Source: Vulcanimicrobiota bacterium (lineage in GTDB: Bacteria; Vulcanimicrobiota; Vulcanimicrobiia; Vulcanimicrobiales; Vulcanimicrobiaceae). Taken from it: 64,000 bases of DNA. The position numbers were made by a program, and so were the translations under genes. The DNA is taken from NCBI GenBank assembly GCA_027306785.1, contig DAHUZB010000033.1:1-64000 (forward strand), written 5' to 3'. How positions within the stretch are numbered: position 1 is the first letter of the stretch; every line of letters starts with the position of its first letter. Positions 30,359-33,052 of this stretch are shown here, piece after piece. The notes beneath the pieces are model-generated. The model was given only the letters and a program-made list of their open reading frames with translations, did no database searches and was not told the origin of the DNA.

Positions 30359-30387
30359 TTGACGGCGCGGGCGGCCTGTCCTATTGT
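30359..30387 (+). promoter_or_regulatory. Sigma-70-type promoter of the peptide-GntR-ABC operon
   Basis: TTGACG at 30359-30364, a 17-base spacer, then TATTGT at 30382-30387. The best-looking vegetative promoter in the window, 56 bases before the GWGPK peptide ATG. Its -10 end overlaps the operator palindrome. Confidence 0.75.
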
Positions 30388-30403
30388 ACTAGTGTACTAG
30401 TAC
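30386..30403. promoter_or_regulatory. Palindromic operator, probable GntR (YtrA-type) site
   Basis: GTACTAGT-GT-ACTAGTAC is a perfect 8+8 inverted repeat around two bases, placed across the -10 end and the expected transcription start. YtrA-type GntR repressors typically autoregulate through such palindromes, and the GntR gene is second in this operon. Assignment of the regulator to this site is inference. Confidence 0.75.
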
Positions 30404-30442
30404 GACAGCACGTTGGTACTGGGACGGAAAGAAGGCAGCACC

Positions 30443-30553
30443 ATGACCCGTTTCATCGATCGTCCGACCGAGACCGAGAGCCGCGAGACCCGCGTTCGCG
30501 TTCCGCAGCAGATGCCCGCCCCGATGTTCCAAGGCTGGGGCCCGAAGTTCTAA
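30443..30553 (+). CDS. 36-residue peptide ending in GWGPKF
   Basis: MTRFIDRPTETESRETRVRV, then PQQMPAPMFQGWGPKF and stop. AGAAGG at 30430-30435 is a fair Shine-Dalgarno. It is the first gene after the promoter/operator and ends six bases before the GntR start. The final FQGWGPK repeats the FGGWGPK of the peptide at 23089-23250, while the rest differs: a charged leader-like half followed by the conserved end. No secretion signal is visible. Its place at the head of an ABC-transporter operon makes a signalling or exported peptide possible, but nothing in the sequence proves it. Confidence 0.6.
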   Translation: MTRFIDRPTETESRETRVRVPQQMPAPMFQGWGPKF

Positions 30554-30559
30554 ACGGCC

Positions 30560-30958
30560 ATGCCCGTCGTTCTCACGGTCGACCCGCGTAGCGGCGTCCC
30601 GATCTATCTCCAGGTGATCGAGCAGGTCAAGCGCTCGGTGGCGCTCGGGATCCTCGCAGGCGGGGAACAGCTCCCGACGGTCAAGCAGCTCGCGCTCGAT
30701 CTCACGATCAATCCCAACACCGTTGCCAAAGCCTATCGCGAGCTGGAGCGCGACGGCGTGATCGAGACCTCGCCGGGGCGCGGCTCGTTCGTCAAGAGCA
30801 ACGGCGCCGCCGACTCCACCAAATCCGCCGCGCGCGATGTCGCTCGCGACGCGTTCGATGCGGCGGTGCGAGAAGCAAAATCGATCGGACTCGGCGCGGC
30901 CGAGGTACGAGACCTGGCCGCCGCGGCGATCGACCGCTGGTTCACGGAGGAGCAATGA
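30560..30958 (+). CDS. GntR-family transcriptional regulator, YtrA subfamily
   Basis: 132 residues. Winged helix at about 10-80 (GVPIYLQVIEQVKRSVALG, LPTVKQLALDLTINPNTVAK, ELERDGVIETSPGRGSFV), followed by only a short helical tail. This small size is typical of the YtrA subfamily, which controls ABC transporters rather than metabolic enzymes and lacks a large ligand domain. It overlaps the ABC ATPase gene by ATGA (30955-30958). Likely repressor of its own operon at 30386-30403. In Bacillus the equivalent operon responds to cell-wall antibiotics. Confidence 0.92.
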   Translation: MPVVLTVDPRSGVPIYLQVIEQVKRSVALGILAGGEQLPTVKQLALDLTINPNTVAKAYRELERDGVIETSPGRGSFVKSNGAADSTKSAARDVARDAFDAAVREAKSIGLGAAEVRDLAAAAIDRWFTEEQ

Positions 30959-31869
30959 GCAGCACCCTTACCGTTTCGCATCTTCGCAAGACGTACGGAC
31001 CGTACGTCGCGGTCGACGATCTCTCGTTCGAGGTCCCCGAAGGCTGCGTCTTCGGATTGCTCGGCCCCAACGGCGCCGGCAAATCGACCACCTTCAAATG
31101 TATGCTCGGTCTCGCTCGCGCGACCGCGGGCAGCGTGCTCTTCGGCGGCAAGCCGCTCGAGCCCGCGCTCTTCGAGTCGATCGCGTACGTGCCGGAGCGC
31201 AGCGTGCTCTACGATTGGATGACGGTCGCCGAACACGTCGAGATGCAGCGCCGCGCGTTTACCTCGTTCGATCCGAAAGCAGCGTACGAATTGCTCGCGC
31301 AGTTCGGCATCGATCCGCGCAAAAAAGCGCGCGCGCTTTCCAAAGGCATGAAGACGGCGACGATGGTCGCGCTCGCGATCGCACGCCGCGCGCAAACGCT
31401 CATTCTCGATGAACCCACGAGCGGGCTCGATCCGATCAACCAGCGCCACGTCCTCAATTTGATCATCAACGAATCGGCGCGCGGCGCGACCGTGATCTTC
31501 TCGTCGCATCAGATCGGCCAGGTGGAACGCGCCGCGGAGAGCATCGCGGTGATCGATCGCGGACGACTCGCGCTCGAAGGCGCGGTCGACGATCTGAAGG
31601 CCGGACGCAAGATCGTCGAAGCGATCTTCCCGTCCGAAACGTACGCGCTCGACGGCGTGAGCGGCGATTCGCGCGTGGCTCGTCTGGATCGCACCGGACG
31701 TATCGTACGCGCGCTCGTGACGAGCGACGCCGGCGAATTCGTCACGCGGCTGGAAGCGCTCGGCGGCAGCGGCGTGCGCATCGTCGACCTCAATCTCGAA
31801 GACATCTTTTTGTACGCGGTCGCGCCGAGCGATGCAACGGCCGACGTGGTGGGAGGCGCATCGAAATGA
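30955..31869 (+). CDS. ABC transporter ATP-binding protein (YtrB-like)
   Basis: 304 residues. Walker A GPNGAGKS at 37-44, signature LSKGM at 128-132, Walker B LILDEPTSGLDP at 149-160, and switch His in FSSHQIGQVERAAE. The Q-loop position reads YVPERSVLYDWMTV: Glu81 stands where Gln is usual, a change seen in some exporter ATPases with short families but worth noting. The C-terminal 90 residues form an accessory beta-rich domain. It couples to the permease encoded next (overlap 31866-31869). Confidence 0.93.
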   Translation: MSSTLTVSHLRKTYGPYVAVDDLSFEVPEGCVFGLLGPNGAGKSTTFKCMLGLARATAGSVLFGGKPLEPALFESIAYVPERSVLYDWMTVAEHVEMQRRAFTSFDPKAAYELLAQFGIDPRKKARALSKGMKTATMVALAIARRAQTLILDEPTSGLDPINQRHVLNLIINESARGATVIFSSHQIGQVERAAESIAVIDRGRLALEGAVDDLKAGRKIVEAIFPSETYALDGVSGDSRVARLDRTGRIVRALVTSDAGEFVTRLEALGGSGVRIVDLNLEDIFLYAVAPSDATADVVGGASK

Positions 31870-32888
31870 CCTATGTCGAATGGCTGCGCGTGCGAAACGT
31901 GCTGCGCGTCACCGCGATCGTGCTCGGGGCGCTCATCGTGCTCGCCCTTGCCGTGCGCTTGAGCCTAATGCATTACGGCTCGGTCGATGCGTACGTCAAT
32001 CAGCTGCGCCACGAGCAGGGTGCGAAGGTGAGCACGACCACGCTTCCCGACGGAACGCGCCGCACCACGATCGACACGCCGAAGGGCGAGCACGTGGTGA
32101 TCGACGATCGCGGGTATCGCGGCCAACATATCGTGATCACGCAGGCTAAGCGCGGAACGCATGACGGCGGACACTTGTTCGTCGGCATCGGCAGCGTGCG
32201 CGTCGATGAGTCCACGACGGGCAACAAAACGACGACGGTCGCCGATACCGATTCCGCGACACCCTTCTACTATCTGCTCGGCTTCGCCCAAATCGTCGCG
32301 TTGATCGTGGCAACCGTGCTCGCCGCACCGTTCGCGCGCGAAAACGACGGCCATCTCGAACTCGCTCTCACCAAACCGATACGACGCGACGCGTACGCCT
32401 TGCGGACGATGGGCGTCGATGCGCTCGGCATCCTGGCCGCCGCCGCGCTCACGATCGTCGCCGCGATGGTGAGTCAAACGATCTTCGAGGTGCCACGTTA
32501 CGAGTTCGGCGGTCCGATCGTCTTCGTCGCGCTCATTACAATCGTGCTCCCGCTCGCGTGGTATGCGATGCTCGCGGCGGCGACCGCATCGATGCGACGT
32601 AGCCACGGTGTGCTGCTCGGCCTCTCGTGGCCGATCGTGGGCATCACCCTGCTCCTTGCGGCGCTTCCGATGCAAGGCTCGATCGTCGGCGTCTTCGTGC
32701 ACGCGGTCGCGCATGCGCTCTCGTGGCTGATTCCGGTCAGCTACGTCAACTTCAACGTGTCGTATCCGACGACCGGTACCCCCACGTTCTACGATCCGAC
32801 CTTCGGTCCGCGTTTCGCCGCGGTCACCCTTCTCACGCTGATCTATGGTGCGCTCGCCGTGTGGCAGTGGCGGCGCGTGGAGGCCTAA
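31866..32888 (+). CDS. ABC-2-type transporter permease
   Basis: 340 residues. Helix 1 lies at about 14-36, followed by a soluble extracytoplasmic region of about 90 residues rich in Thr/Asp (TTTLPDGTRRTTIDTPKGEH). Five more helices follow from about residue 135 (PFYYLLGFAQIVALIVATVL, then SWLIPVSYVNFN near the end). PFARENDGHLELALTKPIRR between helices 2 and 3 is the ABC-2 coupling-type motif. With the preceding ATPase it forms an exporter. Substrate unknown; the large outer loop could bind a peptide or lipid. Confidence 0.85.
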   Translation: MTYVEWLRVRNVLRVTAIVLGALIVLALAVRLSLMHYGSVDAYVNQLRHEQGAKVSTTTLPDGTRRTTIDTPKGEHVVIDDRGYRGQHIVITQAKRGTHDGGHLFVGIGSVRVDESTTGNKTTTVADTDSATPFYYLLGFAQIVALIVATVLAAPFARENDGHLELALTKPIRRDAYALRTMGVDALGILAAAALTIVAAMVSQTIFEVPRYEFGGPIVFVALITIVLPLAWYAMLAAATASMRRSHGVLLGLSWPIVGITLLLAALPMQGSIVGVFVHAVAHALSWLIPVSYVNFNVSYPTTGTPTFYDPTFGPRFAAVTLLTLIYGALAVWQWRRVEA

Positions 32889-32890
32889 TC

Positions 32891-33052
32891 ATGATGGAGA
32901 TTTTCGGAACAAACTTTTCGATTACGCTCGGGTCGTGGCGCCTGCGCTTCTGCCTCGCGCTCGAAGATACCGATATGCCGGTCCCGGCGAAGGCCGCGAC
33001 GCCGCACCGCGTGCGGATCGTGCCCGAAGACGAATTCTCGCGCCGAGCCTAG
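32891..33052 (+). CDS. 53-residue protein ending the ABC operon
   Basis: Starts at ATG 32891, two bases after the permease stop (a second ATG follows at once): MMEIFGTNFSITLGSWRLRF, then CLALEDTDMPVPAKAATPHR and VRIVPEDEFSRRA. The first 25 residues are beta-like and hydrophobic, the rest polar. The gene is tightly linked to the transporter and on the same transcript by position. Its TAG stop shares the bases CTAG (33049-33052) with the stop of the convergent gene. No family recognised. Confidence 0.55.
   Translation: MMEIFGTNFSITLGSWRLRFCLALEDTDMPVPAKAATPHRVRIVPEDEFSRRA

Follow-up and report, generated by a model that had tools for sequence, protein, structure and literature searches.

FxGWG micropeptides, a lineage-restricted family of Vulcanimicrobiota, lead a YtrA-type GntR/ABC-2 operon and operons under unrelated stress-type regulators

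Introduction

In the Bacillus subtilis ytrGABCDEF operon a small first gene, encoding the transmembrane protein YtrG, precedes a YtrA-type GntR regulator that represses the ABC operon (PMC12772383), while in Sulfolobus acidocaldarius the short YtrA-type GntR protein YtrASa represses its own operon from a palindrome close to where transcription begins and has a very small regulon (PMC6746942). Short open reading frames (ORFs) also participate in antibiotic responses. For example, the leader peptide peTrpL of Sinorhizobium meliloti acts in trans, targeting the mRNA that encodes the repressor of a transporter operon (PMC7298713), and a short upstream open reading frame (uORF) located 5′ of the TopAI-YjhQ toxin-antitoxin pair of Escherichia coli senses ribosome-targeting antibiotics (PMC12121999). 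Herein we analyse positions 30359-33052 of a 64,000-nucleotide (nt) stretch of Vulcanimicrobiota DNA (contig DAHUZB010000033.1; hereafter the window), an operon in which a 36-residue peptide gene leads the genes for a YtrA-type GntR repressor, an ABC transporter and a small trailing protein.

The locus shares with ytrGABCDEF a small first cistron before the YtrA-type GntR of an ABC operon, and with YtrASa a short YtrA-type GntR whose promoter is accompanied by a palindrome, here a predicted operator. It differs from both. Unlike YtrG, the leading peptide contains no hydrophobic segment and is also found outside of transporter operons, and the operon consists of one ATPase and one permease together with a 53-amino-acid tail protein. 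For YtrASa neither a peptide gene nor an ABC transporter is reported, and the operator sequences differ. Similarly, peTrpL is an attenuator leader peptide of unrelated sequence, and TopAI-YjhQ has a single cis-acting uORF, in contrast to the family of paralogous peptides described below. An earlier note on this DNA, made from the letters alone, had placed the leading GWGPK peptide outside of the known layout. Since ytrA of B. subtilis already has a small gene in front of it, the layout of the operon is not new; the peptide itself is, YtrG being transmembrane. The FxGWG peptides, as we name them, are a new, lineage-restricted family of putative cytoplasmic micropeptides.

A micropeptide family with an invariant C-terminus

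The peptide gene of the window (MTRFIDRPTETESRETRVRVPQQMPAPMFQGWGPKF, 30443..30553, on the forward strand like all features of the operon) has homologues in the same operon position across its family, with conserved length, frame, Shine-Dalgarno sequence (GAAGG at 30431..30435, as read from the sequence) and C-terminus. In total we collected 131 distinct peptides of 28-52 amino acids (median 39) from Candidatus Eremiobacterota, the phylum currently named Vulcanimicrobiota by NCBI. The hallmark of this family is a terminal octapeptide, F-x-G-W-G-[PV]-[KR]-[LIF], which directly abuts the stop codon and which in the window reads FQGWGPKF (30527..30550). In families f1 and f3, a pattern search revealed between one and four peptides in most of the genomes. 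With Phe at position -8 added to the pattern there were approximately 150 matches, in 87 of 149 genomes of the phylum, as compared to two matches for the reversed pattern, a roughly 75-fold excess. Since the first search pattern did not include Phe -8, its presence in 110 of 111 peptides serves as an independent check. F-8, G-6, W-5 and G-4 each occur in at least 110 of these 111, position -3 is P or V, position -2 is K or R in 108, and position -1, next to the stop, is L, I or F in 100. The penultimate basic residue is lacking in a variant of genus g9, FRGWG[VI][TS][LI] (FRGWGVTL, for example), and 87 of the 131 peptides end in P-[KR]-[LIFV].

Substitutions across the last eight codons point to a selected reading frame. 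The proportion of synonymous differences (pS) was 0.56 and that of nonsynonymous differences (pN) 0.22, as compared to about 0.27 and 0.32 in the shifted frames; synonymous change exceeded nonsynonymous change in this frame only. Coding is thus supported by the in-frame substitution pattern. A Shine-Dalgarno match of at least 4 nt precedes 94% of the peptides and 47% of genes generally, a contrast slightly favoured by how peptide starts were picked. The peptides are rich in proline (10.8%) and arginine (10.1%; 21% together), carry a net charge of +2 and have no transmembrane segment, the highest 15-residue hydropathy being 1.33 and the median 0.27. An AlphaFold model of the peptide was uninformative, with practically no secondary structure (predicted local distance difference test score (pLDDT) 66, predicted template modelling score 0.13).

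The family had no match in Pfam, NCBIfam or the PDB, and a literature search returned no paper with the string GWGPK. None of the matches outside of the phylum (3/38; 84,980 genomes searched) showed a gene-like context, and viral contigs and plasmids contained no FxGWG peptides. The small peptides are absent from the sister family f2; a 223-amino-acid protein of that family (L221, L222 and L227) terminates in FQGWGP[RH]L followed by a single extra residue, a likeness that is probably coincidental.

Peptide genes under unrelated regulators

We surveyed the genomic context of the peptide genes in 134 stretches, three of which were chance matches in other phyla. In 73 of them the peptide was positioned 5′ of a GntR gene. 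Another 21 preceded DUF4097 and/or DUF6249 genes, in 20 cases with a divergent gene for an extracytoplasmic function (ECF) sigma factor, 10 were divergent to a CGNR/ABATE regulator (PF07336, PF11706), and in single cases a peptide was located 5′ of PadR, ECF sigma or VOC genes. Three distinct promoter architectures head these genes: the GntR operator described below; in the DUF4097 group, divergent GAAACA...CGTA and TACG...TGTTTC elements of the GAAACA-N-CGTA form, as ECF promoters should look; and, in the CGNR group, TTGACAGGTTA together with repeated GGTTAC elements. In family f3 (loci L113, L114, L116, L120, L121, L032, L111 and L124) the CGNR/ABATE gene is divergent, and TTGACAGGTTA with its GGTTAC repeats resembles an operator for that regulator. 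Finally, about nine copies are the last or only gene of their transcript, with a convergent gene or nothing next (L034, L112, L114, L116, L121, L039, L113 and the second copies of L035 and L038), and these are therefore not leaders of a downstream gene.

The genome of the window itself contains two clear copies, that of the operon and a second outside of the window in a DUF4097 context (G000:C15:20805-20879, equivalent to L051:4880). The latter heads a DUF4097-DUF6249 operon and faces a divergent operon for an ECF sigma factor and its anti-sigma factor, with mirrored ECF-type promoters between the two. At two loci the peptide lies directly before PadR, followed by a large FtsX/MacB-like permease (L073:13842) or by a HAAS-domain protein (L031:3305).

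A conserved promoter and predicted operator in front of the GntR operon

The promoter of the operon comprises a TTGACG -35 box (30359..30364) and, 17 nt further on, a TATTGT -10 box (30382..30387), which is overlapped by the 18-base-pair palindrome GTACTAGT-GT-ACTAGTAC (30386..30403). The perfect 8+8 palindrome reported over the promoter is indeed present, while to call the promoter the best of the window was an overstatement, as it scores 9/12 and ten other sites in the window tie with it. Perfect 8+8 palindromes with a spacer of 0-4 number 33 in the window as a whole. Neither element being exceptional within the window, it is conservation that makes them credible. For GntR-linked peptides, TTGAC[AG]-N17-TATTGT leading into GTACTAGTNNACTAGTAC recurs 5′ of this operon throughout the class, and in most of these loci TTGAC[AG] is kept 17-18 nt before TATTGT. 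The operator was found with at most 3/16 mismatches in 66 of 71 GntR-linked loci, as compared to at least 5 in every shuffled sequence, and with one or two exceptions it was missing at the 56 peptides not linked to GntR. The exact palindrome occurred in 18 of 98 genomes of relatives, every time at this operon only, and the reversed control gave none. Therefore, the regulator appears to possess a single site, predicted to be autoregulatory.

A candidate stress-induced micropeptide acting in trans

Unrelated regulators place this peptide first in their transcripts, and some of these transcripts encode nothing else. The best reading is therefore that the window contains an autoregulated YtrA-type GntR/ABC-2 operon whose first product is a stress-induced cytoplasmic micropeptide that acts in trans through its free C-terminus, to which we assign a probability of about one half. 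On this model, departure of the repressor from the operator over the -10 box would allow transcription of the operon. The peptide would be translated first, from its strong ribosome-binding site, followed by the repressor, the transporter and the tail protein. Other controllers (ECF sigma factors, CGNR/ABATE, PadR and a sigma-factor operon) would yield the same type of peptide under other conditions of control, so that peptides with the invariant end F-x-G-W-G-[PV]-[KR]-[LIF]-COOH could constitute a common stress-induced effector with a general cellular target. Indeed, the sharing of a first product by unrelated regulons indicates a common target. The peptide is thus probably a shared part of the stress response of this lineage and not a component of any single transporter.

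The leading candidate for that target is the ribosome when it is terminating translation or about to do so. Termination as a candidate is suggested by the fixed position of the motif next to the stop codon, by a basic residue in penultimate and a hydrophobic one in last place, by the richness in proline and arginine and by the avoidance of TGA in GntR-linked copies. Apidaecins are insect antimicrobial peptides with the core PRPPHPRL. Together with other type II proline-rich peptides, apidaecin arrests terminating ribosomes and is active when expressed inside bacteria; the release factor is contacted by its penultimate Arg, the carboxylate of its final Leu lies near the P-site tRNA, and its N-terminal half is variable (PMC11347161). 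FxGWG peptides likewise combine eight conserved C-terminal residues, ending in a basic and then a hydrophobic residue with a free carboxylate, with a variable N-terminal half. They differ in that the core is of the FxGWGPKL type instead of PRPPHPRL, in their proline content of 10.8%, and in the lack of a penultimate basic residue in g9 and a few others. We regard this likeness as a working hypothesis of resemblance and claim no homology.

Some points weigh against this reading as a whole. First, the next gene start is usually found 2-30 nt from the peptide stop, as it would be for a cis-acting leader. Second, gene calls came from a home-made codon model, and a 'solitary' copy is one with no convincing same-strand gene close downstream. 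Third, genus g25 retains the operator, the GntR gene and the tail protein but has no peptide before GntR and no motif elsewhere in its genome; its operon seems, by sequence, to be functional, so that in this genus at least the operon can dispense with the peptide. The earlier note had called for a survey of such neighbourhoods, and in ours the loss of the peptide from syntenic operons was not general, g25 alone having dropped it among the lineages examined. We also considered that g25 might have lost a shared partner along with all of its peptides, an idea weakened by the absence of the whole second locus in g25 and of just its peptide in other genera.

The strongest alternative, though we consider it doubtful, is that the peptide gene is a cis-acting uORF whose conserved C-terminus pauses the ribosome at its own stop codon, thereby hiding or freeing the next start and, in the GntR operon, blocking synthesis of the repressor. 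Such a role would account for the fixed position of the motif relative to the stop codon, for the next start lying 2-30 nt past the stop at GntR loci, and for the near absence of TGA among GntR-linked peptides (1 of 73, as compared to 42% of the genes at these loci, a contrast inflated by shared ancestry). It would also account for the use of the rare Arg codons AGG and AGA at the penultimate position (14 of 52, as compared to 24 of 459 at the other positions of these peptides). However, this codon skew is explained equally well by exchange of K and R via AAG-AGG-CGG, and we did not use it as proof of pausing; the stop and codon statistics are both inflated by common descent. Furthermore, the genes and gaps downstream of the peptides are highly variable, and the approximately nine copies that stand alone or last have no gene directly downstream to control, which makes a purely cis-acting role unlikely. 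An additional cis effect on repressor synthesis is possible in the GntR operons. Two other links to the next gene were rejected. The GGGG of the GWG codons is too distant to act as its Shine-Dalgarno sequence (~19 nt here) and is also present in solitary copies, and translational coupling through a GntR gene devoid of such a sequence was unsupported, since Shine-Dalgarno strength at GntR genes (52%) resembled the gene background (47%).

The two modes might also be combined, a speculative reading that we hold to be rather unlikely and that extends the apidaecin analogy. The lineage may possess termination-arrest peptides of its own, such that every stress regulator would begin by producing a peptide with a [PV]-[KR]-[LIF] end that, at the stop codon, holds the release factor on the ribosome, braking translation in trans and shutting off the repressor in cis where its gene starts only a few bases further on.

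We find it improbable that the peptides are precursors of a pheromone or of a ribosomally synthesized and post-translationally modified peptide, with the C-terminal octapeptide as the modified or cleaved product for export. Short precursors with a fixed C-terminal block, the ABC exporter that comes next in the GntR group, and one copy located about 450 nt 5′ of a YcaO gene would be in keeping with such a product. However, no YcaO gene was present in any tested f3 genome, even though most of these carry two to four peptides each, and SPASM proteins were missing from the peptide carriers G007, G013, G032, G038 and G065. Most other copies have no exporter nearby, the peptides have no signal peptide, and the tail is too conserved for a strain-specific signal. 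As neither YcaO nor SPASM distributions track the peptide, we rejected this reading and treat the YcaO case, at L088, as isolated. At that locus (L088:4687 onwards) an FxGWG peptide is followed by a 98-amino-acid protein with no family match and then by YcaO (PF02624, E 1e-40). The genome of the window has two adjacent YcaO genes (G000:C26:74872-77982) and a third on C33.

The earlier note had suggested a signal, an exported product or a transporter accessory. In most of the class the peptide constantly accompanies the GntR-ABC operon, which would suit an accessory subunit or regulator of this transporter. In contrast, the same C-terminal motif heads operons that contain no transporter, under CGNR, ECF or PadR control, or stands alone, and therefore the peptide is most likely neither a subunit nor a cargo of this transporter. 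In addition, g25 keeps the operon without the peptide, which is not a membrane peptide in any case. On the non-transporter contexts we rejected an accessory role, which we judge improbable. A chance ORF in the leader, for which nothing speaks but small size and the lack of a family match, has a negligible probability and is refuted as far as sequence evidence allows: the peptide is conserved between genera and between families, purifying selection acts on its frame, its Shine-Dalgarno sequences are strong, and the pattern far exceeds its reversed form.

This family is under selection in most members of a class of uncultured bacteria, and at least four unrelated stress-type controllers are linked to it. 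The 131 natural variants of the eight-residue motif provide a ready test set, and the family is a candidate for a natural peptide that acts on translation or on the stress machinery of its own cell.

Downstream genes of the operon

All five ORFs were located where the earlier note had put them, and its view of one regulated operon of five cistrons, opened by a peptide and closed by a small protein, was borne out; the operon is conserved and both small proteins are under selection. The GntR gene (30560..30958) encodes 132 amino acids with an N-terminal PF00392 winged helix (residues 16-78, E 4.8e-14). Its relatives in the PDB are 3by6, 4ham, 6sbs ('Regulatory protein', 121 amino acids), which we take to be YtrASa, and 2du9. 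The best of these are 121-134 amino acids long, in line with the short C-terminal domain of the YtrA subfamily, and the gene is linked to membrane/ABC transporter genes, as is typical of that subfamily. On these features the protein is YtrA-type. The ATPase (304 amino acids, 30955..31869; PF00005, E 1.4e-25) is by its matches of the standard ABC exporter type, its best NCBIfam matches, none of which reached the cut-off, being to the DrrA, lantibiotic protection and PmtA types.

The ABC-2 type permease (340 amino acids, 31866..32888) had no match in Pfam or NCBIfam. Its transmembrane-like segments (residues 7-42 and 130-161) are separated by about 88 residues, close to the 90-residue outer loop that had been described. 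In the AlphaFold model of the permease (mean pLDDT 72) this extracytoplasmic loop (31992..32255) forms a beta domain of seven strands. A Foldseek search with the permease model gave no match at E < 0.001; the loop was weakly similar to the periplasmic stress sensor RseB of E. coli (E 0.02, prob 1.0), and the membrane part weakly resembled NosY and ABCG. The permeases of family f3 and of some other such operons are shorter and seemingly lack the outer domain.

The operon ends with the 53-amino-acid tail protein (32891..33052), ME[IL]xGTNFxIxLGxWRLRF... PHRxRIVPEDE, a homologue of which follows the permease in nearly all of the operons displayed. It was found in 29 of 60 relatives, g25 included, as a single copy that lay near the GntR operon wherever both coordinates were known. 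In the variant operon at L141, two permease genes flank a tail protein of 49 amino acids, one on each side.

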